From Nautilus pompilius (lineage: Eukaryota; Mollusca; Cephalopoda; Nautilida; Nautilidae): a stretch of DNA of 64,000 bases. How positions within the stretch are numbered: position 1 is the stretch's first letter; each line of letters opens with the position of its first letter. The notes under the pieces were generated by a model that was given only the letters and a program-made list of their open reading frames with translations, did not search any database and had not been told where the DNA came from. This document shows positions 180 through 61,500 of the stretch, in pieces. A program made the position numbers and the translations under genes. The stretch spans positions 62,001 through 126,000 of the forward strand of contig JACATO010001021.1 in assembly GCA_018389105.1 (NCBI GenBank), read 5' to 3'.

Positions 180-370
180 CTTCGTAACTTCTCCCCTGCA
201 CAGGCTTTCATATGTGAAATACTCCTCGGAATTTCTGTAGGGATCGAGCTTTCTGATGTTCTTGATTGGGAGTTCTCCATCATCGCCTCTTTTTTCCGAG
301 TTGCTCATCTCGTCATTGATAATCCTTTCATAATACTGTTTGTTGTTTCTGGCTCGCTCGTGAGTTGGAT
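180..370 (-). CDS. P4HA: Gene 1 exon 6: region between TPR and catalytic domain
   Basis: Encodes DPTHERARNNKQYYERIIND, then a variable acidic stretch and YFTYESLCRGEVTK. The cysteine in CRGE is the first of a conserved P4HA disulfide pair. Acceptor ATGAAG, donor CGAAG|GTAAAC. The 191 nt equal gene 3 exon 6. The next exon is beyond the left window edge. Confidence 0.92.
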
Positions 371-3300
371 CTTCATGAGAAGAAAAACGAAATCGAAAAT
401 AATTACCCAGCTTCCTCGAGGGATTCACAAAAGAACAGGACGAAATCCTACCACAGAAATACTTTTAACCCCGGTCCTGCCGGCACTCACTATATTGTAT
501 GTAAACATAACGCACTACCACTGAGGTCCAAGATTGTTAGTATCACATAATAAAAATAAATTATACAGATATTTTTGGAAGAAATCTAAATTTATAACAA
601 GATGAATCACAGCTCTAGTAAAGTTGAGGAAAACAAGGAATTTCATACTTATCGTTAATAGCTCTTAAAAAAAAAATTTATCAGGTGAAAGCACAGACAT
701 AGCTCACAGTCAGAAGGGAAAGGAAGATAGAGGAAAACAAAGAACTACCTACCCACCACTTGCAATATTAAAGAAGAGACTTTCAGCAGTCATGCAACTA
801 TGTTAGTTCCAGATCATCCTTTTGTTTTTTGTGTGGTGATTGCGTAAGTGGTGCGTGTGAAAGTTCGTGTATGCGTGTTTATCTCCGAGAAGGGATCCAA
901 CCACTTATCATCTGTGCAATGCAAAAATAAAACGCTAATAATAATGTAAAGAAATCCAATAGCCAATTATTGAAAAGCATTCAAATTTATAGTACCGCAA
1001 CAATTCGACATTAAATTTCCAAGTAGTATTTACAATTTTTAAATATTTTTCTTTACAGCAATCTAATGCTTTGCATCTAGGATTTGCCTCAGTTCCCATC
1101 CCCATCAAGGTTTTAATGCCCCATTTAAATTCTCCATATGAGTAAAAACTTACCTAAGTTAAGAAGCTCATTTGTCAAAAACAAAGCATGTCTGGTATTT
1201 CCTTGCTGGAAGGAAGGAAAAACAAAAAGATGATGAAACAAATACACATTTTTTGTCAAGAAACTGTACTTCTGTTTCAAATAAAAGTAAGCTGAATACA
1301 AAGCACAATAAAAACATTTAAACTTGGCAAGATCTTCCTGAGTGAAGCAACGATACATTCAAGTGTTGAATTTAAAAAAAAAAAAAAAGCATTTTAATTC
1401 AGAGTCAAATCTGTGTTGTTTTAAAGCTTTACTGTTGATATTTTTCTAGTGTCAAACACAATCAGATAATCTACTTTTAAAATGAAGTTCAGAAAGAAAA
1501 AATTCCACAAATAAGTGCATGCACTCTGTATACTGATAGAAGTTTAATTATTCCATAAATAAAAGAGACAAGCTCTTCCTGCAAGAACATGGTGATAATA
1601 AAATAGCAGCAGTGCAAGGTAGTGAAAACTCATACCTATAATTTAAAATACACAAGCTAGCTTTGAAATTTGTTATCCATCTCTTCCTTGATATCTTAAT
1701 GAATTTACATCCCTTGGGACATATCCATGACAGCTGTCAGGAAAGAGAGAGCACAAATAGGTACCTTCTTGTGAAATAAGGGCAGACATAGGTAAATAAA
1801 CTATAAATTCATGAAGAATTATGTGAAGCAATCATAAATGGTATCAGAACTAGCAAACGTTCTACAATCATCGTACTCCAGAACAATAGCTAGAGTACAT
1901 TGCCATGTGTCTTGGAAATATGACAGCCTACCTGTGAAGACTGTCCAACATTTTATTTGATATTGGACAGGAAATTTTCATCAGGAAGTCAAATGATAAA
2001 TAGTGAAAGCAAATGTTAACAAGATTGTTTGCATCTTACATAAAAACTAGGTGGATTGGAGAGGATGTATCATGTTTTCCTCGATAAATTAGAAACACAT
2101 AATTTGCATCAGTTACTTGTCAAATTTAAGGTAGCATTTTTTTTTTAGTAAAAAAACAAACAAAAACTTCTCAATGGTTAGAGAACAGTCACGTCTAAGG
2201 ATGCTGCTCTTCTCCCCCTTACCATTGACATCGCAAAGGCCAAGTAGTCAAGAACGCTTGCTCTATCCACTGTGCTTTCTTCTTGGGATTCCCGATCCAG
2301 AGCTTCCTGCATCCACATGACAGTATGATAGTAGTCCTTCTCAATGTAGGCATACCGTCCCAGTTCAAAACACTCATCAGCTACAAGGCACAACATCATC
2401 TTGTCACCGTGTACTGTTTAATGGCACTGTCGTGATGAGGCAACTAGTGCATGCAGCTATCTTTAGTGTTCTTCTTTCAAAGCATTCTGTTAGCTAGCAG
2501 GCGAAAGAAAATATAAAAATGCACAGAAAGGAGAAGCACAGAACCTTTTTAAAAGCTTGTGAAGGGTTTTCTATGAATCATGCAAGGTCCATTTTTTGCT
2601 TAGTCTATTGTTTTTTTTGTGGTAATTAATAAAGACCACCAAAAAGGCAAAGCGATTATAACGGACACGCAATTAATTCTCAGGTAATATATATATATAT
2701 TAAAGAACTAATAAAAAAACTATGCCATGTTGCTGTTCTGCCATCTTTATTTTAACACAGCTTACTGATCAAAACGTATCCATTTCTTGAAAAATTCAGC
2801 GCCATGCCATAATAGCCTGGAAACCACCTGTTATTGTGTGTGTGTGTCGGTTTGTTGTTGGGGGGAAAAAACAAAAGAGTGAAATTCTTTGTTAGATGAA
2901 CCATATTTCAAAGAGCTTTTACCATTGAATTAACAAGGCGGCTGTATCACTGTCTAGTCCAAGAAGTTCCCCCTATTCACGTGTGTGCGCTAAGTCTTTA
3001 AAATGACAAATGTGGCAGAATTGAGATGTCCTTTGAGAAACACCAATTACATCTTTCTATCATGTCAAATTGCAGGCTGTTTATACTTGATTGTGTGTTG
3101 AAGACAAGTCTTCATTAGGTCTCTTCCAAACTTAATTGCAGTCTCCCAGACATGAACTGAAAACCAGACTCGCTGAAGAAGGGTGCATGCTGCCAATACT
3201 CAAGGGTCTTGCCACATGTCTTCTTGAGACTTTTGAAGCATTTAAATCCCACTGGACAGAAGAGGTGCTACCTTCTGTAGCCAAGTTGGAGATGATGATA

Positions 3301-6300
3301 CTGAATCATTTTTTGGGTAATTTCTGTTGTTTGGGGCAAGGCAGCAAGAGAATTTTGATAGTGAGTGAGGATTTGGAGTATTGGGGTAAGTGATTGTCAT
3401 GGTGTCACTGCTGACATCCTTCTGGCTTGTTTTGTTGCAGCAACGACACTCACCTCATTGCAAAATGGTCAGATCTCTGGCTGGCTGCCAAAAATTCTGG
3501 CCAAACTCTGAATGGACTATAATACCACATTGGCTAAACTGGGAAACATCAAAGAATCAGTCTGTTTTCAGTATGGCCATAATAGAGTGGTTGTCTCCCC
3601 CACCTAGATAGATTAATTAAATTAATTAGTAACAATCTAAATTTTAAGTTAAGCATAAATACAAAAGTATGAGTGGGTGACCAAAACGTAGACAGCTATC
3701 AGGTGTTGTCAAATCTCAGAATAAAATCTAACATAAAAAACAAAATTTTCATGCCCCAGTCTTAAAAAAAAAATCACCTTGTGTATAAAAAGACTTTCAA
3801 AGTTTCAAAATTATGCAAGTAAGGTCAACAATGCTACTAAGGCAGTCACCAGCCATCTGGATATTGCCAAACTGGTAACATCAATGACAGGTTAAGCAGT
3901 GGTCTTCCCAGATGTACAAATGCCCAAGATAAATGGACTGGAGAAACTCTGCAGAACAGTTTGAATTTCCCAGATGGCAGGTCACACAAACTGCACCATC
4001 CATTGAAAGCATTATGTTGACTTGAATAATGTGCAGCATGCAAAGAGGGATTATGGTTGGAAGGACCCCAGTTGAGATTGAGAGAAACAGGAAAGGTTTC
4101 CAGATCCTTCATCCATTGAGCATCCATGGTAACAGCCTTGGTTCCCAAAATCCCCCCTATAGTCCAATCAAGGTTAGAAGTACACAGGGTCACCAGATCA
4201 CATACAGTAATGTCTCTCCCTCCATTTTTATTAAAAAAAACAAACAAAAAAAAAAAACCAGTTCAATCTGATGCATTGGAAATATGAGTTATTAACAGCA
4301 AACAAAAAACGAATAATAATAAATTTCACGTGAATAGTACACAAAGAACAGGGACTTTTCTTTCCTTCTTTGTAAAACTGTTGAAGCTCTAAGTGTGCTA
4401 CAGAAAGATCAGTCAGGCCTGATTTGATCAGTTTCTTCCCATCTATTTCTAATCACGACAATTACGTACCTTGTAGGTGGAGAATGACAGATAATCCAAT
4501 AACAATCCCTTAGAAATAGTTTTATTCTTTTCAGTTTCCCACTTAACCAAAGATTGTTGCATCCACAGAATTGTATGGTAGAAGTCATCAGAATTGTAAG
4601 CTAGCCTACCAAGTTCATAGCAGTCTGCCGCTGCAATACAGGCAAAGGAGGAATAAGCTGTTAGTAAATGATCGTTAATACTTGTAGTATAGCAGTCCAA
4701 AATAATTTAGTTTATTTGAGTGAAGATAAATCAAAGAAAACTCTAAAACGTATAATAAATAAAGAGAACAAGCAAACAACAAATGGTATTAGTTTTGTAT
4801 GGAATTTTATTAAAATCAAGATGCTTTTCCACAGAGCAAGAGGCACCTTTACCCTACTGGTTTATGACTTCAAACACCCAATCAACAAAAATATTAAATT
4901 TATTTCGTGGAGAAACATGATGATGATTACTGCAGTACTAAACACCAAACTAGACATTTATGAGGTTTATCCCTTTAATATATGAAACAAACATTTGTAA
5001 TGTCACCGGTAGTTTCAAATAGGTGGGAGCAAAAGTAAAAAATAGAAAATATAGACATAAAAACTAACATAGTTAAAAACCAATTTTTTTTCCTCTCCTT
5101 TTCAACCTGTCGGTGTTTAGTCTTACCACCCACAGTCCTTGGCAGCAGCTGTTAGATGTTCCAGCAGAGAGAAGGACCAACATTTATTGGAAACTGACAT
5201 CCATCCTTCATAATGGGTTTTAGAAGCTTTCTGTGGTTTATTCTTTGCTTCAAACTTTCCCACATCCATTCAGCTGTGATTCTTTTTGATGGTTAAAATG
5301 ACTAATTTCTGAGATCATACATACATATATATATATCTGTAACCTACTGATTATCACTCCTAAACATGGGCACTGTACATTTACTTCGGCCTCATCTAGC
5401 CCTCCCTCCAATCTGTACATTTCCCTCCATGTTCTCCTTACTGATAAATGAATAACTTCTTCCAGGCCACACTTTCAAGCAATCCACTGGTACACTCTAT
5501 CTCATTCCTACTATTCGGGAACTACTGATGACTTCTCCACCCCCGACCACCTGCTATTTTTTTTTTTTGCAAACCGTACAAAGTTTGTTTTCTGTCTTCT
5601 TTGTCCTCTTGCCCGTCTCTATTTGATTGCCACTTAAATCAAATCTATGATGGCTGTGAACTCCACAATGATATTGTGGACTGCTGACTTTGGTAACCCT
5701 GACATTTACAGTCGGCCCCTGCATAATCGCGGCCCCGGTTATTCGCGGAATTTTCCTTAGAACCTAACTAATAATTGTTCGTGGAAACCCCCGCATATTC
5801 GCGGAATCGCAAATATCTTCCGCGATTTTTTAATGGCTTTTTGTGGCAATATATATTTTTTCACGCTTTCTAATGCTAAATTATTAATAGCAATATAATT
5901 TACTAATTTTGTAATATAAATACTAACGTAAATTCAGCAAAATATCAATATAAAATAAACGCTATTGGCTGGAGGTTTGAAAGTAGCCAATCCGAGAGCG
6001 TTATCCATTTCTCCTCGCTGCTGATTGGCTGCTGCCCACGAGGCACTGTCTCAGGCAGATGCACCCAGCATCATCCCAGTTTACCGTGTGTAGCTATCTC
6101 GAGTGTTTCTCTGAGTGTTGTATTTTTTATTAAATTATTATTATATATTTACTTATATTTTACGTTATATTTTGATGTTTATAGGCATTTTTATGGACCA
6201 TGTCCAATATTCGTGGTTTTTCACTCTTCGCGGGTGCTCAAGGGACGTAACCCCTGCGAATACCGGGGGACAACTGTAATAACTTTTCTTCTCAAAAAAC

Positions 6301-9300: not shown

Positions 9301-9897
9301 TTTTTGCTGAAGATAACCCTAATCTGATGCAAAATTTGATCTTTCTTTCTGAGACTATCTTTACCACTGATCCATCATCCATACCTGTCTGCACTTTGAT
9401 CAAATAAACAAAAAAAAATAATATTCTTTTTCCATTTCATTTCTTTGTATTTTTAGTCTACAACCTTTTTTCTTTTGATTAAACAACAACAACAAAACAA
9501 TATGGCAGTCATAAGACCACATAATTTTATAAAATATTCTATTAAAAAAATTACTAATGCCCATCATAAGATCCAGGGGAAAGAAAAATTGTTATTTATG
9601 ATAATAAATTAATTTTGATTTAAAATTCACAGCGATGTTGGTATGACTTGCAGCATCTTAGATTTAAAGCGGTTAAAACTTGAGATTAGATTCTTGTTTA
9701 AGTTCAGCACACCTACCTGAAAGTTCTGTTGACCTAACACCTGCGATATTTCCACGAGCAATTTCTGCCGTTTCTAACTTGTAAGTGTCCTGTAGGCGGA
9801 GGAGGGCAGCTGCTGCCCCATTGAGATCCTCAATGCCAGGTAGGTCTTGTCTATAAATGTGAATTCTGGAAATAATATCTGAAAAAAAAAAAAAATG

Positions 9898-9929
<32 letters not shown>

Positions 9930-12900
9930 AATACTTCCATAGTGAAGTAGTTGCATTTAATCTAAATTTTAAATGCTAGAAAAAATAATGAAATATAATA
10001 TAAAAACACCAAGTTGTTTCTTATCTTCAATGGTCACGGTATCCAGAATGTAAAATCAATAAAGTAAAATGTCGATTTAACAGAACCCCAATTCAACAGA
10101 CTTTGTAAGCAATGGATGCTGTCTGCTTCTCCAAACAAGAGTCCATGTTGAGCCGTGTCAAAAACATTTTTTTTTTTGCTTAGGCGCCTTTTGCACACGC
10201 GTATGTAAACGTGTGGATTTAATGGACACCCCCCTATTAGTCTTCTAAATTGAGGTTTTACTGTATTGGAGACATTTTGATGTCTTGCTGAAAGTCTTAA
10301 AAGCACCAAAATGAATCATTTTCGAGATGGGTCTTTGGTTTACTTCTCCCAACAATCCGCTGGAACAGCTATCCCTGGAATTTATGTAATGAGATGTACG
10401 AGTTTTTCTTGGGTGTGCAAGAATGCGCTGGAACAAGATTTCCATCAGAGGACTGCCAGCAAACTGCATGACAACCAGAGCACTTCAGCTTTCACAGGAA
10501 ATCAGATGTTACGACAAAATCCTTTATCCCTGTGAAGGTGCAAACAGGGCCAACCAGCTGATAGTGCCCATCCATACTCGTACGAGCATGGTGGCTGCTT
10601 AGTAAACTTTGCCTACTTATGTATCATTGCACGAAGAATTGCTGACAGGATCCCTAGATCAAAATTGCATGGCACACACTCGGGATACATTCTAGAAATG
10701 CAGTTTTGGATCATGCAATACATTATAAAGCCTTGTAAGATCCAGTCCTGTTTTGGCATAGCTTTGTACGTCTTGACATTGTAAAGACCGCCTCATCAAC
10801 AGCACACAGCCAAGGATCATGGCAGCCACGATCTAACGATATGGGTTATTCAAGAGTTTTCTAATGAAAAGTTGATCAGAACAACTATTTTACTCTGCAA
10901 AACACCCACAATTTGTCCATCTTTCAATGAATCTACATACATTTGAGCACCATCAGTAAAATCAAATGTAATATGATATCGGCACTAAAAATGCTCAAAT
11001 AAAACCCGACTAAATGCCATTACAACAGACTATTTTCAGCTGGGCTTCATTTAACATCCCCAGCATTAGTCACAAATACAAAATTCTTTTGACAACATTC
11101 AATTAACATCTGTAAAGTTAATTAAGTTTACTAAACAAATACATATTTAAATAAAAGACAATTTTCTGGAGAGTTTCAAGCCATAAACCAAGATCAAATA
11201 GTCTTGCACTTACCATCAACGCTACTGTTCTTTAACAAGTGAGAGACTTTGTCCCAATCCAACGTAAATCTTTTAACCAACAGAAATGCGTTTACTGGAT
11301 TCCCAAGGTAAAAGTTTGGATTACTGAGGGCATTACTGCTGTGTTTTTCATAGTCATCAGCAATACTGAAAGTAATTTTAAAAATGCAAGTTAGATAACA
11401 GTTTTCAAGTGTAAGAAAGTAAACTCAAGCGATTGCTGCAAAGTATGAAAAAAAAAAGCACTTGCAACATGAGTTATCTTCCCTTTTCTATATTTCAATA
11501 ATTTCTATAACAAAGCAATGATAATCATTACACAATATTGTGTGTATTTGACCCCTCCCCATCCCACCTTAAACCGAGAAATGATATATCAGGAAGTCTG
11601 GCATGCATACCAATGTTGCCATGTGGGTAAATCAAATCTAATTACTGTATATATTGGCAAATATGACCACTTATGAAGCATAAAATTTTTACCAAAAATT
11701 AGAGGTAGTCTTAAATGTCAAGTATAAAATCTGAACCTTAAATTCTACAGTGTAGATTGTCACCATGGGTGACAGAGAGCACTGGAAACATCCACCACAA
11801 ATATTTTATACTGAAACTAGTGTTTGGCATGCTGGATTAACAGAAAGATTATATTAAAATAGTAAAAATGCAGTTTAATGAAACTTGTCTAACATAAAAT
11901 AATACAAACAGCTAACAGCCAGGAACTCCAACAGCTGATGCACAGTAAACAAACTGCCACCAGCCAGAAGCGTGTTCCGTTTTCCAGAGGGTTTTGCCAG
12001 CCAAGGGCTTTCTATGTATACCTGTTATGGTAGTTTAGCAGTATGTAAAGTTATTTTAACATAGCGTGCCTTCTGCTTACAGCTATAATCCTCTGTAATT
12101 TGCTCGCTGACGTCAGCCAAGCCTTACAGTGACCAGTTACTTTTAAATATTTTAAAGACTTAAATTAGTCATTTTTAATTATTTAACCCCACCATGGCTC
12201 CATCTGCTAAGGGGAGGAAATGTGAAGCTTGCTTCAAACTGAAATTGGTAGCATTTTCCAAGTCACACGACAACTATGTTGTTGCACACTGGCTGATTCT
12301 CAAAAAGCATGTAGCAGACCTGGTCCATGAGCAGCATCAAAATGGCTATGTTGTAACAAGAAATAAAATACACATTTTTGAACTTAAGTGAGCTAAATCA
12401 AACCAACATCATGGTGTAGTCATTTTATGGAAAGGAATGATCTGGTAGAGGCAGAAAACAAAAAGTGTGCAGAAATTACAGCAGATCTTGATTGTAAAAT
12501 TAGTAATTTCCATCACTACATAATATAACAACGTAAGGAACACGACTGTACATTAAGCAACATTGGGAACATGGAGGAAACTCAAATGGAGATTGATATG
12601 GTTGGTAATCGAATTGTAGATACAAAGGGCACAAAACAGTGTTAGTAAAAACTACAGGACATGAAAAGATGAGACTAACAGTGGTACTCTCATGTGTGGT
12701 GGATGGAACCAAAACCAACAATCCAATGATCATTTTCAAGAGGAAAACCATGCCAAAAATCAAGTTCCTTACTGGAGTTTTTGTTCACGCCTACGAAAAT
12801 GGGTGGATGGACAAAGAAGAAATAAATTTATGGCTTGACCATGATGGTGTAGGCAAATGGGTGGCTTTCGAAAACAACATAGCCTCTTGGTATGGGATAT

Positions 12901-15735
12901 GTTTGAGTCCCATCTAACCGAGGACACAAGGAAACGCATGGTCAGAAACAACACTGACTTGGCAGTTATAACATCACTGGTACAACCACCGGGTGTTTGT
13001 CTCAACAAGCCGTTCAAGGACTGTGTTCGTGACAGTGGAATTAGTGGAGGGAATAAGTGTGCTCCTCAACTGGACGCACAACGTGATTTTCGCATTAAGG
13101 CGGGAATTTCACTAAGCCTGAAAGTTAAATGTAAAACTTGCTTAGGTTTTGTTTATTTAACGAGTCAGGTTTGTCATTTTACTCCCTACCACTGACAAAG
13201 TCACAACGCATCAGTAACACATCTGTCTGTCTCAGTGCATGTCACCATTGATCATTAAAACAAACATTAACTTATTAAACAAACGCACAAAAAGTCCCAT
13301 GAAAGATACAAATGACTGCAAATACTTCTCCTATTATTATTATTACTATTATTAATTTCTAACATTTCAGTACCATAGTCACCTGACAAAATACCTTTAT
13401 AAAGCGCATAGAACCTCAATTTTTGCCCTTGTACCTCTTGACTCGGAAGCCATAGATGGGGGGGGGGGGTCCACTCGATCCGAACAGTTACTTGATAACA
13501 AGTTTTATCTCCCTGAACTGTAGGGGACAGGGAAGCAGGTACACAGACTAACGCAAAAAAAAAAAAAATCTATCAACAAAAAAACAGCTAATACAGTGGT
13601 CAGGTATCAATCGTTTACTTCGAATTAGAAATAACATTGTGCAGCTTCTATCTGATGGAAATTAATGAATTAGATGAGAATTACAGAACTCGGGTGGCAA
13701 GTAAAAGGTAGCTTTTATTTGCACGTGAATCCCCTATTAAATGGTTTTCTCACCTTTTTTTGTTTGTTCGTTTGTTTGGTTGGGAGGTGGGGAAGAGGAG
13801 CAATTATAGATAGAGAAATATCCTGAATTATTTGGTTGGTGCGGGGGCTGAAATTCTTTCGTTTTAATCAGATTTCTCTTCTCCAGGGTCATCCCGAGAA
13901 AGTAGCGGAGCGGAAGTGCCCCAGAATTTCATGGATACCTGATGCCGCCCATGGCTTTCCGGAACTTCCCACGACTTCTCTCCCCCCCTCCCCTCCCGTG
14001 AAAGTTTGAGAATTCAATCTTATCGTATACAAATAATCGAGAGACGATTACAAACAGGTGACCTTCATCGGTAATTGGAATCCGACCCAACCAGTGCCCC
14101 GAATGTATTTCTGTATTTTCACTACTGTACAAACAACAACAACAACAAAAACCCCGAAGGAAATACACCCTACTGGCATGAAGCAGCGCGACAGCGGAAT
14201 CTCTCGTTGTTTGTTGATTCCTTTATTCTAGAATATATATAATTCCTCAGTGCTCTTTATCTCTCTCTCTCTCTCAGTCGTGGTTTTTCAAACCGTCTAC
14301 TTTCGAATGATGTAAAATGAAAACCAGTCAAATCCAGTAACACAACAATTTAAATTCTTGAAGTATTTCCCTGAAAATCTCGGAACCATGCAGAGGTAAA
14401 TTACACACACGGGTCTTTTAAAATCCCAATGGAGTCTATAAAAACGGCGATTTGTCTATCTCTTAAATAAATTAAACAGCAAATATATAAAGAATCTAAA
14501 CGACCAACAACAGAAAAAAACACAAAGAGAGAAGCGGGGAAATTTAATGGAATTTCCTTTGGAGTGATGGCGGGCAGGAAGGTAATTTGAAAGAATGTTG
14601 ATGCGGCTGGAAGAGGTAGTTTTCTCAGCCACTGCCACCTTTGATGACATCATCTGAAGATGAAATTACACAAAGAAAGAAAGGAGATAAGTAGAATGGA
14701 AGGAAAAGCCCTTTAAAATTCCTGATTAAGAGCAGGAGCAAATTTATTGAGTTAATTATTCTTATACGTGGGATTTTACCAAAAATGGTAAGTAAATAAG
14801 AGACAGAGAGATGGAGAGAGAGATGGAGTAAAACACAATTTGCTTCAGTCTGAAAGAATAAAAAGCTACGAGACGGTGCAGGAATGTATCTTAAACATAA
14901 ACATGGCTGTAAATTGGCCTTTTAAACTGTTTGTAAAATTGCTGTAAAAGGTAATCAACTGCAATAAAAATAAAATATAAAAAGAAATGAAGGATGCTGC
15001 TACAGCGCTTATCCACTGACTTTTAAACTGTCTGTATTCACTAATCTATCAAGTGATCCACCACCTACTAACTTAGTTTCTTTGTTTCACCAATCATTGA
15101 GCCAAGACCTTCAGGGTCTACGTTTGCTTTATGGAGGCTAGGGTTTATAAGCTCAAGATGCTCTCCAGTGGCGTAGCCTTCAAACGAGACCTTAAGTTAT
15201 CGGGTTTAAAAAGAGCCCGCCCCGAGGAGGTCTCACTCGGAAAGTTACTGCAGTCGTCGGTAACTAAAGAGAAACTTCCAGAAACTTTTCATCCACGGAC
15301 GGCAGTTGTTTAAAAAGAAAAAAAAGTGAGGAGGAGGCCGAGGGGGGGGGGGCGATAAATGGAAAGAAAGTCTAAAGTGCTTGCGTCAGTAATTTGCTAT
15401 TGCCCTCGTTGTTGCTCTTCTATAAACAGCGGCCCGGGTGGTGGCGAGACGCTCACCAGGCAGAATGATTTAGAACGTAGTACCATATTGTCGGCAGGAG
15501 GGAGTAAACAAACACGCGTTTCTCTCCCCCCCCACCAACGCACACACAACCCTCCTTACCTTTTCAGTAAGGCTAGCCTCTCCTCCTCCAGCCTGACGTT
15601 CTCTTTCAGCTCCCGAGCGATGTCCCTCTCGGCGTACAGTGCCCGCTCCAGGTCCACCATCGCGGTGAAAAGTTCCGAGCGGGCCAGGTTTGCCACGCAG
15701 GCACAGACCAAGTAACAGATCCACATTTCGGGCAT
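180..15735 (-). CDS. P4HA: Gene 1: collagen prolyl 4-hydroxylase subunit alpha (5' half, runs off left edge)
   Basis: Partial gene of seven coding exons, joined 15735-15560, 11365-11214, 9878-9717, then 4630-4470 or 2380-2223, then 1205-1154 and 370-180. Known family role: the ER-lumenal catalytic alpha subunit of the alpha2beta2 tetramer with PDI; it hydroxylates X-Pro-Gly prolines in collagens using Fe2+, 2-oxoglutarate, O2 and ascorbate. Seen here: a signal peptide, the N-terminal dimerisation domain (GNPVNAFLLVKRF), the linker with LLRLQDTYKL, the TPR peptide-binding domain and the CRGE segment. The catalytic exons must lie left of position 1. All junctions are GT-AG and phases agree with genes 2 and 3. 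It differs from them in having two alternative TPR exons and a CpG-rich promoter. The ATG at 15735 is the first after an in-frame TGA; the ATG at 15726 has the better -3 purine. The 5'UTR is not resolved. Confidence 0.93.
371..2222. other. Gene 1 introns around exon 5
   Basis: Introns either side of exon 5. AT-rich; I see no repeats or coding matches in them beyond short poly(A) runs. Confidence 0.55.
1154..1205 (-). CDS. P4HA: Gene 1 exon 5: second half of TPR helix pair
   Basis: A 52-nt exon encoding QGNTRHALFLTNELLNL plus one base. It matches human QGDLDKALLLTKKLLEL. The acceptor is TTCCAG after a pyrimidine tract and the donor is TTAG|GTAAGT. Lengths and phases are identical in genes 2 and 3. 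Confidence 0.92.
2223..2380 (-). CDS. P4HA: Gene 1 exon 4B: TPR peptide-substrate-binding domain, version B
   Basis: Acceptor TTGTAG, donor AATG|GTAAGG, 158 nt (two bases plus 52 codons). It encodes ADECFELGRYAYIEKDYYHT, VMWMQEALDRESQEESTVDR and ASVLDYLAFAMSM. It covers the same segment as exon 4A, about 2.1 kb downstream. It keeps the vertebrate-like DYYH and STxDxxSVLDYL pattern, but has Ser where exon 4A and human P4HA1 have Tyr (AMSM against STYK and AVYQ). The phases match exon 4A exactly. Confidence 0.92.
2381..4469. other. Intron between exons 4A and 4B of gene 1
   Basis: About 2.1 kb. Contains a short (GT)n at 2838-2850 and unassigned open frames at 3136-3611 (plus) and 3846-4247 (minus, 133 codons). 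Neither shows a motif I recognise. The 3.1-4.26 kb block ends in an A-rich run, so it may be an old retroposed sequence; that is a guess. Confidence 0.5.
4470..4630 (-). CDS. P4HA: Gene 1 exon 4A: TPR peptide-substrate-binding domain, version A
   Basis: Acceptor TTGCAG, donor CAAG|GTACGT, 161 nt (two bases plus 53 codons). It encodes ADCYELGRLAYNSDDFYHTI, LWMQQSLVKWETEKNKTISK and LLLDYLSFSTYK. This is the TPR motif pair that forms the tyrosine-lined groove for proline-rich peptides in P4HA. It is most like the single TPR exon of genes 2 and 3 (shared WE-EK and SFST). It lies upstream of exon 4B in transcription order and has the same entry and exit phase. Confidence 0.93.
5709..6276 (+). mobile_element. 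Non-autonomous pogo/Tigger-like MITE
   Basis: It begins CAGTCGGCCCCTGCATAATC and ends CGGGGGACAACTG, with inverted termini of the CAGT(C/T)G type and TA on both sides (5707-5708, 6277-6278). TA targets and CAGT termini are typical of pogo/Tigger. The interior has phrases such as TATTCGCGG and is more CpG-rich than the surroundings. No open frame. Lies in gene 1 intron 3. Confidence 0.72.
6285..9716. other. Right part of gene 1 intron 3
   Basis: AT-rich, with (AAC)n at 8599-8618, a GTGAGT run near 8292 and (TTAA)n at 9175-9195. No gene seen. Confidence 0.55.
9717..9878 (-). CDS. P4HA: Gene 1 exon 3: linker to the TPR domain
   Basis: Encodes a variable start (DIISRIHIYRQDLPGIEDLN), then the conserved GAAAALLRLQDTYKLETAEI and GNIAGVRSTELS. 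I chose the downstream donor (CTTTCAG|GTAGGT). It keeps the linker colinear with vertebrate P4HA, leaves the single G needed by either TPR exon, and gives ...ELS-A-ADCYELG. An upstream GCAG|GTGTTA donor is also in phase but would delete the linker. Confidence 0.9.
9904..9929. repeat. (AC)n microsatellite
   Basis: A dinucleotide run about 25 bp upstream (in gene 1 direction) of the exon 3 acceptor, next to a poly(A) run. On the minus strand it reads (GT)n followed by the T-rich acceptor tract. Confidence 0.95.
10058..10266 (+). mobile_element. Small TIR element, pogo-like
   Basis: The right end read on the minus strand is TACAGTAAAACCTCAATTTA. The left end, AAGTAAAATGTCGATTTAAC, is a degraded match in inverted orientation. 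The CAGTAAAACCTCGATTTA-type terminus is known from pogo-group MITEs. About 210 bp. The boundaries are approximate. Confidence 0.45.
10270..11213. other. Gene 1 intron 2, right part
   Basis: A less AT-rich block at 10300-10800 without open frames of recognisable family. It may be an eroded mobile element. Nothing else seen. Confidence 0.4.
11214..11365 (-). CDS. P4HA: Gene 1 exon 2: P4HA N-domain
   Basis: The acceptor TTTCAG|T completes the AGT serine codon. It encodes IADDYEKHSSNALSNPNFYL and the family hallmark GNPVNAFLLVKRFTLDW, corresponding to GHPVNAFKLMKRL in vertebrate P4HA1. It ends GATG|GTAAGT, carrying one base. The 152 nt equal gene 3 exon 2; the gene 2 version is one codon shorter. 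Confidence 0.93.
12194..13150 (+). pseudogene. Decayed pogo/Tigger-type DDE transposase
   Basis: In gene 1 intron 1, opposite strand. Pieces in several frames match the DDE_1 (Tigger/CENP-B-like) transposase. There is an N-terminal psq-like HTH start with CFKLKLVAFSKSH. Then come KTTGHEKMRLTVVLSCVVDG, NPMIIFKRKTMPK and NGWMDKEEINLWL. Further on are LLVWDMFESHLTEDTRKRM, NNTDLAVITSLVQPPGVCLN and KPFKDCVRDSG. Frame changes and stops (after 12391, and near 12840-12900) separate the blocks, and the region between the HTH and catalytic part is shortened. Not functional. The full element boundaries were not found. Confidence 0.78.
13200..15559. other. Gene 1 intron 1, promoter-proximal part
   Basis: Contains G-runs (13458-13468, 15342-15352), (TTA)n near 13333 and (CT)n at 14262-14275. 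No coding match. Confidence 0.5.
15560..15735 (-). CDS. P4HA: Gene 1 exon 1: signal peptide and start of N-domain
   Basis: Codes for a hydrophobic signal peptide (WICYLVCACVANLARS) followed by ELFTAMVDLERALYAERD and LKENVRLEEERLALLK. This matches the helical start of the P4HA N-terminal dimerisation domain. It is 58 codons plus two bases (AG) carried into exon 2; the donor is AAAAG|GTAAGG. An in-frame TGA lies upstream with no earlier ATG. Confidence 0.92.
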
Positions 15736-25800: not shown

Positions 25801-28800
25801 AATGAAGTAAGTAAGATTTAGGAAAGTCCAGTTTTTATTGCCTTACTGGAATATTTCTGTAGGTTTTTTAAAATTAATATTGTGCTGATGGAATGTAAAT
25901 AATTCAGAAAATGATTATTCAAATTAACAGTAAAAATAAATCAGATCTTGCTACCTTGGTAACCAGAAAACTGCTGAACGGAATTCATTGGCAACAGTGA
26001 CGTACATCTGATACATATTTTCAAGTGTTTGTGCATTTGTTTGTTACTCTTTCATAGCCAAACTGTAGCACATAAAGGTCCCAAATTTTGGGTGCAGGTT
26101 CTCCAGAATCTGGACAAGGGTTTAAGCTAGGCCATTTGGAGGACATCAAAGGCTCCTTTTCAAAAGCCTAATAGATTATGCTTAGTTGACTGCATTCATT
26201 CAAAATAGGTGACCTAGAAGCCTGATATTATAAGGATGGTACCTCAGGATTAAAGGAAGAATTCAAGGGTAACAGAGCCTGGCCTCAAAAGCAAACAAAG
26301 GCTCACTTATGGAGGTTCATTGTTACTACAACAACTTCACCTATTAATTCAACTCAGAAGTTACCCAAGATTTCAGTATTTTCACAGTGGGCCTTGAGGG
26401 CCATTTGAAAGCCATCAACAGCAGGTTTTGATATCACACAAAAAGTATAACTTTGAAAACTAAGAACAAAAGTTAATTTAGTAGTTTGCTGCAGGTGTGT
26501 TATCATCTTATAAGCCAGCCCCTTATTGGTCAGGTACCTATTCAGATTCCTAAAAAAGGTCAGCTGAAACATAACAATTTAGTGAATGATTCTTTGCCAT
26601 CATTTTCTATCAATGCTGCTTTGATTTGTCTGGCATTTCCAAGGTGCAAGAATCATTTTTTAAAGTTAGTATTATGCTGCAACCTCTGTAACCATGCAGA
26701 ATGACACTTTTCTATAACTTGATCATGAATAACTCCTCTTTAAGGATTCTGCTTGTAAGACAAAGTGCTTTAACCATCTAATGAAGGAATTTATGCTTCT
26801 CCTATCACCTTCAAAAGTTTGAAAACATTTCAAACGCCACATTTTGCTCAGGTTATTCTGCATTTTATTCACAGTTGTGCAAACCCCACTCTGTTTCAGA
26901 CAGAATTTTAAACATCATCAAACTCTTATTCTTGTGAGGTAGAACTTGTACAGAAACACCCACCCACACCCCATCTATGTCGTCACTAACATATGGAAGA
27001 AATATACAGTTTCAAGCTCTTCCACAAGTTCTCTCTTTTCTAACCAGACTTGTTGTATCGCCATCAGATTGGTTTACGGCTGGTACATCAGTTTTCATCA
27101 CCATGTTGGAAAAAAGACAACAAGAAGAGTCTTACTGCCAAAGTAATATTAACTTCATAAATGAAATAGAAGCACAAAAACATAAATTACATGCAAAATT
27201 GAGCCTTGATCAAGGGAACGCAACCCAACATAAAAATGTACATGTGAAATACAACTGACAGATTTTATATTAAATAATGGTAAAAAAAAACAATACAAAA
27301 TATCTTCAAAATTTGATTTCAAAAAATCTGAATTTTTAAAATATATATACTTTTTTAATTTAAAGAACAAAATAAAAATTAAGCTTGGTTTATGAAACTC
27401 ACACTTGGCTGGTTCTGTAGTCGCCGTATAGAAGATATTTTTGGTAATTTTTCACTTGTGCTCTTTCCAACTGAGCAAAGAAAATAAAAAAAGAAGAAAG
27501 AATATATTCAAACTGCTTTCAGTAGAGGAACTGCTGTGAGCTTCCTTAACTAGCATTTGGGGCAAGTCTGTAACAGTTTTGAGATCCAAGAAAATGTAAA
27601 TTTACAGATAATGCATACATTTCCATTATGAACTTCAGCCAAAATACTTTTACCTAGAAACACATGAAGACAATTTTTCTGAAAGGATTTAATATAAAAG
27701 CAAAAATACAGTATTGCAACTCTACTTTTCTTCAATGACTCTTAGGAGACACACAAGGGGGAGTTACTCTTATATGACTCTGTTGTTTACTTAAAATGTA
27801 GAAAAACTGCAAATTCTGACTCCATGTATAACTGGGGAGAGGGTTGTGGTTGGCCAAAATTGTATATTTTAGACCTTACTTTGGGTGTTGCAAACTCTTT
27901 TGCAATTTTGATTTCTCTGTCAGAAATCACATCATGATACATAACAATCCAAGGTTTCAGGTGAATTTCCTCCTCTTTAACTGGGGCCAGTTTCAGAAAC
28001 GGATTTCCATGGCTAATGTAGCGACATTTCAATTTGTGAGTGTTCCTTGGTTTCTGAAATAAACAAAAAATAGATTTCATCAGAAAATAAATGGACACAT
28101 TTTTCCATTGCTGCAGTGTTGGGAAAGGAGTCCTCATTTGTTATGAATGCCATGAATCAAGATGTTTGCATGGGATGCAAAAGTTGCAGTGGTTTTATTT
28201 TAAAACTGTATGTAATAGGTTGTCATTAAAATATTTAGAAATCTTTTCCATTTAAAATATCATTCAGTCTCATTTTTTGTAAATGTTAGTTGCTACTCAA
28301 TTATTTAAAAAATTATTTCCTAAGTATCATTTGGTGCAAAACAGTCACTAAATGCTTAACTCTTCCAGGGCTACAGCATCAGTAATTTCTAATTAAATAT
28401 TTTAATGAAGCTATCAGTTATAGCCTCATCTATAATGTATCACATGATGTTGATTATAGCCGCATCTATAACATAATCACATGCAATCAATTACAGACTT
28501 ATCTATAACATATCACATGATGTCGATTACAGCCCCATCTATAACATATCGATGTCGATTATAGCCTCATCTATAACGTATAAGATGATGTCGATTATAA
28601 CCTCATCTATAACATATAAGATGATGTTGATTATAGCCTTATCTATAACAATCATATGACATCAATTACAGACTTATCTATAACGCATCACGTGATGTCG
28701 ATTATAGCCTTATCTATAACATAATGACATGACATCAATTACATATTTATCTATAACGTATCATGTGATGTCTATTATCACCTCATCTATACATTTAATT

Positions 28801-39530: not shown

Positions 39531-42500
39531 TGGCAGTAGCACAAAAGAAATACCAGAATGAAAACTTTTGGCAGTATACAGACTACACCAGTGGAATTAG
39601 GTAAAGTCACGGCAGTAATTTTTTAGAAAAGAATAAATGATGAGTATAAAAACCAAGGAAACACCAAATTTATAATGCAGGTGTGTTTGTTGTTGACTTA
39701 TATACATGGAATGGAATCAACAGTCTTTCGATCACAGCCAGTCATCGATCATAACCAATCATAAAGCTTTGGATAACCATTCATCAATTTTTAAATAAGA
39801 ATCAGTCATCAGGTTTTGAATCGTAAAGCATTCCTGGCAGTATCCATACATTCATTCTATTTCATTAATTAATTCATTGGTCACCATTGCATACCTTAAA
39901 AGTGGAGAAAGACAAGTAATCCAATATCAGTTCCTTAGAAACCATTTTGATCTTTTCGTTTTCCCACCTGACCAAAGATTCCTGGAGCCACATAACTGCA
40001 TGGTAGAAGTCTGCTGAATTGTAAGCTATTTTACCAATTTCAAAGCAGTCTTCAGCTACAGCACAGAAAAAAAAAAAATTATTAAAAAAAATATTTAAAA
40101 AAAAACAAAAAAGCGAAAAAAAAACAAGGAGAATATTATCGTCATCATTGTTGTTCTGTCTGAAACAGTTTCAGAAGCTCGCTTCATGCCTCCAAGCCTC
40201 CTTAGCTATGATCACCTGTAAGTTCTGCTGCTCTAGAACCTGCAATATTTCCACTGGCAATTTCTGACGTCTGTAGCTGATACGTGTCCTGAAGACGGAG
40301 AAGGGAAACCGCTGCTCCATTAAAATCCACTGACGACGGAAGATGTTTCATGTGGAGGAGCATGTTGGAAACAACCGTTGCTGAGACACAAAAAAAAGTG
40401 GGGAAAAAGAAAGTAGAAGAGATTAAATAGCCAAGGAAATAGGGAAATGTTGATAACTTTAAGTCAGGCATTTATGCAGAAGAAAATAAAAATGCAGAAT
40501 CTGTTATAATTTTAAATAAAATGGCAGTGGTCAATGGAATTCTTCACCATAAGAATTTAATCAGCAAATGAAGCACGTTGGAAATACGGCAAACCTTAAC
40601 ACTTGAATGGAAATTGCAACGCTTAAAAAAATATTGGTTTTTTTTGTGGTTTTAATGAGAAGAATGTGTCACACAGTAATCTGTACTTGTTTAAATTTTG
40701 ATTCCCTTTTTAGATTTAAAAAATGACATAGGAGAATAATATAAATTAACTAACCGAGAGTTACTCTGCAGCTGGCTTACACTACCTGAGTAACTGCACC
40801 AAGACTGTTGCCATGGTTATTCTGCTGCTTATTAGTATTATTTTTTTTCATTTCTGAGAATCCATTCACCTTATTATGCTAGTGGTAAAGGGTTAATCCC
40901 AACCAGAAAATCACTGAAATAGTTTTACTTTAAGCAAAAATTGAATTATGCTTTTTCACACATCTGCTACTTACCATCTGCACTGCTTTTCAATATGGCA
41001 TAAGTTCTGTTCCAGCCTACAGTAAACTTTTTAATCAAGAGAAATGCGTTTACTGGGTTTTCGGTATAAAAACTAAGATTGCTGAAAGCGGTGCTGCTAT
41101 GGTTTTCATAGTCGTCAGCTATGCTATAAGTAAAATAAATAGACAGGAAACAGTAGAAGCGAAAAGCACACAATTTATACTAGAACAATGGCTGCTGGGA
41201 TGAGTCATAGAACAGGAAAAACAGCCCTATCACCTAAGGCCACTTGATGTACTTACAGACAGAACAGTTCATCATAACAGGCTGGAAATTATTGTTTGTG
41301 GACAAAAAAAGAGAAAAAGTGCAGGTAATTCATGATGTCTGTCTTCAAGGTGCTTACATCCATGAGAAGACGATGGAAAATGTCAGAAACTGAGGCCTGT
41401 TAGCCATTGAATTATAAACTCCCTGGAAATGCCCAAGGAATTAGTGATTATTGGAGCATTTGACATAGTAATGACCTAGAACAGTGGTTACAGAAAACTC
41501 ATCCAGCCTAACAATCTGAATACCTCTGGTCAGTTCTGATACCTGAAAAAAATTATGAAACATAAGCCAGAATTAGCACTAAGCATTCACATAAATACAG
41601 ACATAATGATGAATACTTTTCAAGTAACAGAGACCAGTTTTGCAATTATTTGTTCTCAGAAATTTCATAATCCAGGAACATATAATGTTTAGGTGATCTA
41701 TTAAAGCTATTTCTAGGATGATAGTGGAAGTCTTTAATTGATTGCTCTTGAAGTCAGAGAGGTGAGTACTTTGATTAGATGTGGTGAGTGTGTTGTTCTC
41801 ATAATACAAGATTAGGTGAAACAGTGTACGCTGATGAACAAATCTTGTAAATTAAAGAAAGATTAAATGATAGGGGGGGAGACCACCAGGGTTAGTTGTT
41901 ACAGAGATAAATTGTTACATCACCAATATTTCCTAATTAAATGTATAGACCAGGCTATCATCAATGTCATATGCTTTATTCCTTTGATCTAAGATTAAAG
42001 CAGATAATGTTGAGTATGGCCTCATTTATATGTCATGCGACATCAGTTATAGCCTGGTCTATACATTTAATTGGGAGTTACTGGTGATGTAACAAGTATG
42101 TAAGCAACTAAGCCTATTATTAGTCATCAAGTAAAATCTGTAAAGCTTTAACATTTTGTACTCTTGACATCAAAATTCACATTGAGAACTTCAATTTATT
42201 ATAAAGAGAGGGAAAAAACCAACTAATTTTTAGCTTCTTTAATTTCAAATTTGTTGAGAACACAAGGGGCCAGCAGCAGTTTTTGGTATTGTTATGCTCT
42301 TTAGACAAATTCTTCTTTCTATCACCAAAATGCCATCAGCAAAAAATTAAAACCTGTACATGGGCATTTGTTTTATTGAAATTTTTTTCTATAGAATAGT
42401 AATTTTTTTTTCATTGTTTAAAGAAATAAATGAATTGTGTTTTTTGTTGTTTTTTTAAAGTTTCATTCTGAATGTTGCAAGAGTTTGTACAACTATTGTA

Positions 42501-58532: not shown

Positions 58533-61500
58533 ACCTCTTCTAACACTAGACTGAATGTACTTAAGCAAGCGTAGAAACTGAAACTTGTCACTGAATGGTA
58601 CTGCTGTCCATTTCCCTGTGATGGTGGCAACATTGGGGTCAAGCTTGCTTATCCACTCAGGTCAAGACATGCACAGGCTTACAAGGTTAGATACCACCAT
58701 CACCACTATCAAGTCAGTGATTCCTGATGGACTGGTTAGACATCCAGCATAGTCAAAGCCTAGAGAGTCTGTACTTTTGAGGGAGTAGTGATTGGTTAAT
58801 CTTGTAATTACTATAGCTATGCATAATAATCTTGGCCCCTAATGTCACAGACACTGATGGAATTATTACAGACCAGCACTACCTGGATGAAATCATTAGA
58901 CTTTTTGTTCATCTTCATTGTTGTTTAATGCAAGGACTTAAGAGATGAGAATAGTTATACATACACCACTTTCAGTAAGAAAATATTCCATGTCTTTCAT
59001 AACTGCTTGTTCCCACAACTTAAAGCTTAATAGAACATATTGGCGATAAGCTTTCTAGTTGCATTGGATAGCCATTGTGTGGTGTTGTGATCATCCTAGA
59101 GCTGCATTAAATGTTAACAGAAGAGTAGAATACATTACAAAAAAAATATATCAAACATCTGGTGAATAGTAAAATGTACAATGCTTTAGTTTAAAACAGA
59201 GGTGGCCATACATATTTATAAGAGTTTGGACTTTTGTAAGTCCAGAGTTGGCCATACATTTTTAATTTTGGAATTGTTTTATCCCCAGTAAATTTGCATA
59301 ATTTATATCACAATATTCCAATAGTGTTTTTACCAGTGTATTAAAAAGCAGTAGGCATCCACATTTAATCACTAATTAGCTTAGTTGCTACAATGTAGGA
59401 AACCATCTGTCTGCTCATTTTAAACAAAAAAAAACATGATAATTGTTACTTATCTTCCGATTGTTAGGAAAATAAAAATGTTGTGTACAATCAAGTTGGG
59501 AAATTGGCTGCCACCAGATTTTCGCAACACCAGGCTCTACATCTGGATTATCTACAGTATCTGATGTTTGAATTGTGTGGAGTTAAAGTTGTTGGTCAGC
59601 AACTGGGTGTTGATGAATGAAACTTACTTAAAGCCAGAAGTTTGTGTGTCAGCATCAAAGCGTGTCCAATGTTTCCTTGCTGGAAGATAGAAACAAACAA
59701 AATTAATAAAATGGCATTTTTTGGTTCAGTGTTCTTTATGAAATATAAACTTGAATTTTTTTTTTTGGTAATAATAGAAATCTTAGAATCTTCTGTATAA
59801 TGGAAAATAATTTGGGCAAAAATATTAATTGGTGTCTTTAAGAATGGCACCAATATGGAGCCAGTTTATAAAAAAACAAAGGAAATCTTTAGAAATGAGT
59901 TAGTATGATGAGAACTCTGATACAGGTTAAGAGATTTCTATGTAAGAAATAAGAGAATCTTACATGAGTTGGGGCACACACAGTCTGCCAGTAACTTATA
60001 TTGCATTTTCCTATATTTCTACTCTTTGGCAGGGTGCAGTCGGACCCTTTATTTTTTGCCCGATTCACCATGCAGTAGATGGCATGGTGAATAGGGCAAA
60101 AATACTGCCATCATTACATTATCACTATCAATTTTCCAGGAAAAGGGAGGCTGTTGCAACCTTTTGTTTCCCTCCCACCTATAGATAGCCATGATAATCA
60201 CTGATAACTAGACCTTCCACATCAGTAACTGTACCAAAGGGTATATATATTTTTTAAAAGAGTGCTTAACATAAATAAGATTTAATTCCAAAAACTAGAA
60301 GAAAATATACCAGTAACTTGTCAAGTTGAGGTGATTGCAGAATACAGAAACCAAAAGCAAGTAAGAGCACAAAAAAACATTATTCCTATTGGAGATTTTC
60401 TTGGTAAGAATTCAAAGTTATAATCAGCTGGTACTAACTTAAGGTTAACTTACCCCATAAAGGAAATCAATTTTTTTGTGTGATAATTTAATTACTGTTA
60501 TTTCGAGGGAATATCAGGCAACTTCAAACTTTTTTAAAGCAAATATAAAGGTAAGAGAGCTCTCCTATCAAGAAGACCACAAAAAGTTTTGCTTGCATCA
60601 TAGTTGTGCACAGTGCCACACGATGTTTAGCTGTCTGTTCACTCTAGTTTCAAAAGTACTTAAAACATGAGATAAGTGGTCTTGATATATGAACATTTGA
60701 TTGTTTTACACAGAATTGATAATTTGGGATTGGGACTTTTACCACCAAATTTGATCATATGTGTCTGAACTGTGTGGATTTCTGTAATTCCTTTAAAAAA
60801 AAATTGCCAAGAAAGTGCAGTGCACAAAAGAAATGTCACCACCAGGTTGGCTTTACCTGTTCTACAGGAGGGGGTATATTTACATACAATTAAAGAATTG
60901 AAACTGGAATGGTTTCAAAACATCCAATAATCACATTGTGAATGTGCAGCTGTAGATTTCAGAATTTTCTGCATATATGGCCAAAGAGGACTAAAAAAAT
61001 TTGTTTAAAATGTCCATGTTGGTTTTATATTGCCCATATATATAACAATTTACAACTTGATCTAGTTTAATTTTCACTGCTTACCTATTTTGATTTTAGT
61101 GAGTAAAATTGCATACTTTGAATGTAGAGATAACCAGATAATCCAATACTACTTCTTTGGAAACTGTTTTGGTCTTTTCATTTTCCCACCTGGTCAAAGA
61201 TTCCTGCATCCACAGAACTGCATGGTAGAAGTCGGCTAAAGTGTAAGCTACTTTACCTGCATCAAAGCAGTCTTCAGCTGTAATGTAGAAAAGTGAGAAC
61301 AGCAGTTACAGCAAAATAAGCATCATTTTATTTATTTATATGAGTCAGGTCTTCATTAGAAATACAGTAGCACAGAAAACTGACATACAAAGTTTCATTT
61401 ATACACAGTAGCAAATAATATAACATCCTAAGTATGTACACTAAATTGCATTAAGGCAACCTAGTTTTGGGTTATTTTCATTACCTTATCTTACTGTTGT

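Follow-up and report, generated by a model that had tools for sequence, protein, structure and literature searches.

Why should a gene for a collagen prolyl 4-hydroxylase alpha subunit carry two different exons for the same part of its peptide-substrate-binding (PSB) domain, and are both of them used? The question is raised by gene 1, located on the minus strand of a 64,000-nucleotide stretch of Nautilus pompilius DNA (the window; G000:C976:62001-126000, from a genome of 727.6 Mb in 2,558 contigs), where two diverged exons, 4A and 4B, lie between exons 3 and 5. On the basis of reading frames and exon comparisons, we consider it likely that 4A and 4B serve as alternatives, and that their mutually exclusive splicing would tune the grip of the enzyme on its substrate. 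Gene 1 crosses the left edge of the window and was rebuilt beyond it using the flanking C976 sequence. It comprises twelve shared coding exons in addition to 4A and 4B, with the coding sequence running from the ATG in exon 1 to the TAA closing exon 13 at C976:36980. The exons of gene 1 within the window that are discussed here are as follows (window positions):

15560..15735, minus strand: exon 1, coding part from the ATG, phase-2 end (open frame, GT donor)
11214..11365, minus strand: exon 2, 152 nucleotides (exons 1-3 match Pfam P4Ha_N)
9717..9878, minus strand: exon 3, 162 nucleotides, phase-1 end, upstream partner of both 4A and 4B
4470..4630, minus strand: exon 4A, 161 nucleotides, predicted alternative exon for PSB helices H7-H9, with Tyr at 199 (borders tattgcag / CGGC...CAAG / gtacgt)
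2223..2380, minus strand: exon 4B, 158 nucleotides, predicted alternative exon for PSB helices H7-H9, with Ser at 199 (borders ccttgtag / CTGA...AATG / gtaagg)
1154..1205, minus strand: exon 5, 52 nucleotides (QGNTRHALFLTNELLNL), phase-0 start, containing the TGA reached by both double inclusion and double skipping
180..370, minus strand: exon 6, 191 nucleotides, source of R223, N227, Y230, Y231 and R233 (human numbering)

Judged from its sequence, gene 1 encodes a complete alpha subunit of collagen prolyl 4-hydroxylase, predicted to act on X-Pro-Gly sequence in collagen together with PDI as the beta subunit. The 3-4A-5 and 3-4B-5 combinations encode proteins of 531 and 530 amino acids, respectively, each with a single terminal stop. 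The P4Ha_N, TPR_P4H and 2OG-FeII_Oxy_3 domains follow one another in this order along the 4B isoform, and the PSB domain of the 4A isoform also matches TPR_P4H. In an alignment to human P4HA2 (7zsc; E 3.9e-94), the catalytic part matched over residues 7-231 of the 233-residue query. The EPHFDF and RHAACPVLVGRKW motifs of gene 1 fall within this likeness to human P4HA2, with the HxD...H and Lys residues present, which we take to be the iron ligands and the 2-oxoglutarate-binding residue of prolyl 4-hydroxylases, respectively.

The initial annotation of this DNA described two paralogous tetratricopeptide repeat (TPR) exons between exons 3 and 5. Their coordinates proved exact, and their matches to Pfam and Protein Data Bank (PDB) entries are strong, which rules out chance open frames as the origin of the pair. 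With exons 5 and 6 attached, 4A and 4B matched TPR_P4H with 119.5 and 116.2 bits (cut-off 27), and as exon matches in a genome-wide scan they scored 74.4 and 71.0 bits, respectively. The lengths of both exons leave a remainder of two modulo three, and the phases were as had been proposed, with each exon borrowing one base from exon 3 and finishing on a codon boundary; a duplicate spliced at the main sites would thus serve only as an alternative. Inclusion of both exons at these sites (3-4A-4B-5) leads to a first TGA inside exon 5, with its first base at C976:63177 (window 1177), and skipping of both (3-5) leads to a TGA in the same exon at C976:63170 (window 1170), so that the broken frames anticipated for both cases could be traced. 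The two exons are adjacent and homologous with identical phases, and either one alone leaves the frame open where both or neither do not (main sites), as is characteristic of mutually exclusive tandem-duplicated exons. Two other origins were discounted. A tblastn search of the gene 1 introns (E 0.02; weak for the 17-residue exon 5) yielded no duplicates of exons 3, 5 or 6, which argues against 4B being what is left of a nested or broken copy of the gene. An allelic or assembly artefact is contradicted by the uniqueness of the 4B region, with window 1000-2600 (1,601 nucleotides, including 4B and exon 5) giving a single genome match, itself, in a DNA search confined to this region, and by the identity of 4A and 4B at only 23/53 aligned residues.

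Gene 1 would, on this arrangement, use the tandem-duplicated 4A and 4B in a mutually exclusive manner. Messages containing both or neither would be degraded, because the TGA in exon 5 precedes eight exon junctions. Either exon would build helices H7, H8 and H9, and both isoforms would have in common the PSB part encoded by exons 5 and 6, together with the dimerization and catalytic domains.

What would the exchange of these exons alter? According to the accessible text of PMC12433258, the PSB groove is made chiefly by helices H7, H9 and H11, and in human PSB-I the P1 pocket is formed by Tyr230 and Tyr233 and the P5 pocket by Tyr196, Tyr199, Asn227, Tyr230 and Phe231. AlphaFold models, run per exon with an input alignment of the four window exons, placed helices at residues 3-12, 16-32 and 40-52 of 4A (predicted local distance difference test score, pLDDT, 94.0) and at residues 2-12, 16-33 and 39-50 of 4B. 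Among the Foldseek PDB matches listed (the best 21 of 50 for 4A and the best seven of 50 for 4B), human P4HA PSB domains ranked highest. By position, the three predicted helices are H7, H8 and H9, and the modelled exon swap exchanges two of the three groove helices while H11 is kept. The claim that these are substrate-binding-domain exons therefore stands as far as their position within the peptide-binding groove is concerned, but they supply only H7-H9 and not the whole domain. Using a human residue numbering derived from our own alignments to the human proteins, five of the ten named pocket residues of human P4HA1 fall within exon 4, and the sole difference between 4A and 4B among these is at position 199, in the P5 pocket: 4A has Y158, D192, Y193, F196 and Y199, and 4B is identical except for S199. 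This position is occupied by F, F and Y in genes 2, 3 and 4 (the tandem paralogues of gene 1 listed below), by Tyr in P4HA1 and by Phe in human P4HA2. The Tyr233 of P4HA1 is absent from both gene 1 isoforms (R233), and Tyr196 is replaced by Phe in both. Aromatic differences in the groove had been proposed at two motifs, of which STYK/AMSM includes pocket position 199, while DFYH/DYYH coincides with no pocket residue named in the accessible text of the structural study (PMC12433258). The predicted change to the groove is narrower than first claimed, with one of the five named pocket residues in exon 4 differing. The 4A enzyme would retain the aromatic Tyr199 in the P5 proline pocket, where the 4B enzyme would have Ser199. 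Considering the human structures and the exon alignment, the 4B enzyme should grip polyproline-type sequence less tightly or with a different preference.

The exon 4B sequence looks to be under protein-level constraint. Of the 35 columns identical in human P4HA1 and P4HA2, 22 are retained in 4B and 21 in 4A, compared with 17, 20 and 20 in genes 2, 3 and 4, respectively. Changes between 4A and 4B are fewer at codon position 2 (16/52) than at position 3 (30/52; Fisher p 0.01). In a simple simulation of neutral decay from 4A, without indels and with rates of our choosing, a rate of 0.55 changes per site left 0.25 % of the 2,000 runs open and at the same time as 4A-like as 4B, and no runs qualified at 0.8 and 1.1 changes per site. 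These results also bear on the proposal that the pair is chiefly an off switch, in which double inclusion or skipping would feed nonsense-mediated decay and so set the level of the enzyme. Both events do reach a TGA in exon 5, but a poison exon need not keep a working protein domain, and given that 4B looks conserved as protein we regard this proposal as quite improbable.

Several observations weigh against the reading of 4A and 4B as working alternatives. The AG-free stretch of the 4B acceptor (19 nucleotides) is the shortest of the 13 acceptors of gene 1, and its pyrimidine count (10/20) is the second-lowest, only that of exon 12 being lower (9). Furthermore, 4B was absent from genes 2, 3 and 4 on tblastn analysis, an absence that bears on one of the refuting conditions named in the initial annotation, although these are paralogues, not orthologues. 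Both the acceptor and this absence favour the view that a single exon is used, most likely 4A, with 4B a dormant duplicate that is open by chance or was recently silenced. We consider this unlikely, as 4B is open and keeps the vertebrate-conserved columns as 4A does, and an unconstrained old duplicate seldom came to resemble 4B in the simulation; recent silencing would still fit, and at 0.3 changes per site 7.7 % of the simulated runs qualified, at which rate the case against decay is weak. The poor 4B acceptor may be consistent with a regulated exon or with a little-used one. Exclusivity itself is challenged by a GT (6/9 match) that lies four nucleotides beyond the 4A donor, and by AGs at positions -19 and +8 relative to the 4B acceptor, all of which give lengths restoring the 4A-4B frame, an outcome deduced from the exon lengths. 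The description of the pair as locked into exclusivity by phase consequently holds at the main splice sites, but is too strong in view of these shifted ones. Were both exons joined through the latter, additional helices would lengthen the PSB domain. This appears very improbable, in that the main 4A donor is stronger (8/9 vs 6/9), the main borders of 4A and 4B fit the alignments to human and paralogous sequences, and we know of no collagen prolyl 4-hydroxylase with such an enlarged PSB domain. With regard to structure, the 4B model is the less certain (pLDDT 80.1) and lies at a root-mean-square deviation of 3.5-3.6 Å from the human PSB domain, compared with 1.0-1.2 Å for 4A, and there were no Foldseek matches of the 4A or 4B model at E 0.001. 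The substitution effects reported in the accessible text of PMC12433258 concern Tyr193, Tyr196, Tyr230 and Tyr233, and not Tyr199.

If 4A and 4B are indeed spliced as alternatives, the means of choosing between them must be considered. The gap between the two exons measures 2,089 nucleotides, which argues against steric exclusion by a too-short intron, and a regulator would thus most likely repress 4B, the exon with the poor acceptor, in some cells. Candidate elements upstream of 4B are:

2450..2455, minus strand: TGCATG, 75 nucleotides upstream of 4B, weak candidate RBFOX site
2579-2584, minus strand: second TGCATG, 204 nucleotides upstream of 4B, weak

The TGCATG motif near 4B is presumably a possible site for RBFOX proteins. 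None occurs within 300 nucleotides of 4A and seven occur in 10 kb, a count that provides weak evidence. An intronic match shared downstream of 4A and 4B, which was reached by 0/200 shuffles, was on inspection merely a T-rich low-complexity match and was rejected.

How old is the exon pair? Tblastn of the exons against C976:12001-176000 revealed a minus-strand array of four prolyl 4-hydroxylase alpha genes in tandem. These genes, and the single exon 4 of each of genes 2-4, are as follows:

C976 ~150.3-133.6 kb, minus strand: gene 4 (tblastn)
C976 ~128.3-105.9 kb, minus strand: gene 3, mostly inside the window (tblastn)
C976 ~104.8-84.5 kb, minus strand: gene 2, wholly inside the window (tblastn)
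C976 ~77.7-37.0 kb, minus strand: gene 1 (tblastn)
39895..40056, minus strand: gene 2 exon 4, single, 4A-type (tblastn codon limits)
61117..61278, minus strand: gene 3 exon 4, single, 4A-type (tblastn codon limits)
C976:145437-145598, minus strand: gene 4 exon 4, 4A-type

Catalytic-domain exons are present in each of the four paralogues. The genome-wide TPR_P4H scan gave eight matches, comprising exon 4 of genes 2-4, 4A, 4B, a copy on C2279, one on C1318 and, below the cut-off, exon 5 of gene 3. Contig C2279 is 99.84 % identical over 12.1 kb to the gene 4 region and is probably the other, unmerged haplotype of that region, and C1318 carries divergent prolyl 4-hydroxylase relatives. A search for relatives, with one scan each of genome contigs and viral contigs, yielded 70 and 37 pattern matches, respectively, none of which was confirmed. 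The last exon of gene 1 shares 80 % identity with a human P4HA1 query, compared with 64-66 % for the other genes, and the N-terminal exons do not distinguish gene 1 from genes 2-4.

Exon 4A is identical to its counterparts in genes 2, 3 and 4 at 35/54, 31/54 and 38/54 residues, and 4B to the same three at 24/53, 24/53 and 23/53. Human P4HA1 exon 4 shares 29/53 residues with 4B and 26/54 with 4A, and human P4HA2 exon 4 25/51 and 23/52, respectively. An exon-4 tree of seven rows, from which the divergent C1318 row was omitted, separated 4A and genes 2-4 from 4B and the human exons (support 92/95). A forced sister grouping of 4A and 4B, representing a recent duplication within gene 1, was disfavoured but not rejected (approximately unbiased test, p 0.13). 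The flanking-exon tree joined genes 2 and 3 (93/93) and left the others unresolved; the human P4HA1 branch in it was long. Where 4A and 4B encode the same amino acid, 15/20 codons differ, compared with 8/32, 7/27 and 8/34 between 4A and genes 2, 3 and 4, and with 89/209, 101/224 and 99/216 between gene 1 and the same genes across other exons (nine of twelve: 1, 2, 3, 5, 6, 7, 9, 10 and 13). The 15/20 proportion differs both from 99/216 (Fisher p 0.018) and from the pooled 4A-type count of 23/93 (p 4e-5). Synonymous divergence (dS, NG86 method) was 0.66-0.72 for 4A against genes 2-4, and that of 4A against 4B was saturated and gave no value. On these comparisons 4A and 4B probably diverged before the genes were duplicated, and 4B would therefore have been lost in the gene copies. 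No convincing 4B relic was found in genes 2-4 among 36 intron-by-query tests. The best candidate, in gene 4 intron 4-5, contains stops; its score was reached by 1/200 shuffles for the whole exon and 6/200 for the first half, and its DNA alignment by 6/100 shuffles, or 46/200 in a lenient version. The same DNA test of 4A against gene 3 intron 3-4 was reached by 1/100 shuffles. In all six gene pairs, same-amino-acid codons agree more often in the 4A-type exons than in the nine other exons (p <0.05 in two of the six), a likeness that could stem from gene conversion or from constraint on the RNA. A further, tentative possibility, which we consider doubtful, is that exon 4 was duplicated before the four-gene array arose, and perhaps before the split from vertebrates, giving an ancient two-state PSB groove of which gene 1 kept both states, the copies fixed 4A and vertebrates a 4B-like one. 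Exon choice and gene duplication would, if this is true, have diversified the grip on collagen substrates in the same way by two routes.

Several other features occur in and beyond the window. Transposase fragments of the hAT type (Dimer_Tnp_hAT, DUF4371) are found at window 32091-34098 on the minus strand, within the long gene 2 intron 5-6, and a DDE_1 transposase fragment at 12609-12917 on the plus strand, in gene 1 intron 1-2 and opposite in strand to the gene. Gene 2 also contains a minisatellite with a 36-nucleotide unit in ~10 copies (window 28418-28791). Across many contigs of the genome there are at least 117 COX1-like pieces, short and fragmentary (scores cover 96 of 180 candidates), a pattern suggestive of numerous nuclear mitochondrial DNA copies. 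The best COX1 piece has a lophotrochozoan look.

Vertebrate genes of the same family provide the closest comparison for the gene 1 pair. In the accessible portions of the respective sources, P4HA1 uses exon 9a or exon 9b in a mutually exclusive manner (PMC11868403), and P4HA1 and P4HA2 have homologous alternative exons, including P4HA2 exon 12b and its alternative (PMC12525012). The earlier contrast with vertebrates was borne out to the extent that, in the accessible text of PMC9676403, the P4HA1 and P4HA2 splice variants alter small parts of the catalytic domain. Like these two, gene 1 codes for a collagen prolyl 4-hydroxylase alpha subunit and has homologous alternative exons, which are predicted to be used one at a time; unlike them, its pair lies in the PSB domain and not in the catalytic domain. 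The 71-nucleotide catalytic-domain exon of gene 1, which we take to be the equivalent of the P4HA1 choice point, is present in one copy (ungapped minus-strand scan, C976:12001-176000), with no 9a/9b-type duplicate. No paper on a PSB-domain exon pair was found among those listed in searches of open-access literature, judged mainly by title, opening lines of the abstract and selected passages; most subscription papers lie outside this coverage, and public animal genome annotations may list such isoforms. The human PSB-I and PSB-II domains of P4HA1 and P4HA2 differ in peptide affinity between the products of separate genes, with the difference at position 233 being stressed in the accessible text (PMC12433258). 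The gene 1 PSB domain has the same TPR fold and pocket framework as these, but its variation would arise by splicing of one gene, and at position 199. Exons 4A and 4B also resemble tandem duplicated exon substitution events, in which neighbouring homologous exons yield proteins identical except for one region; no P4HA case is shown among those events in the accessible part of that source (PMC9741552). Gene 1 would provide a natural experiment on the role of the swapped PSB site, in which H7-H9 are changed against a shared catalytic domain, with one named pocket residue and the surrounding surface differing. The pair looks like the same kind of device as the vertebrate P4HA exon switch, in the same enzyme family but at a different site, and would add a second position at which an exon switch appears to have evolved among these enzymes.

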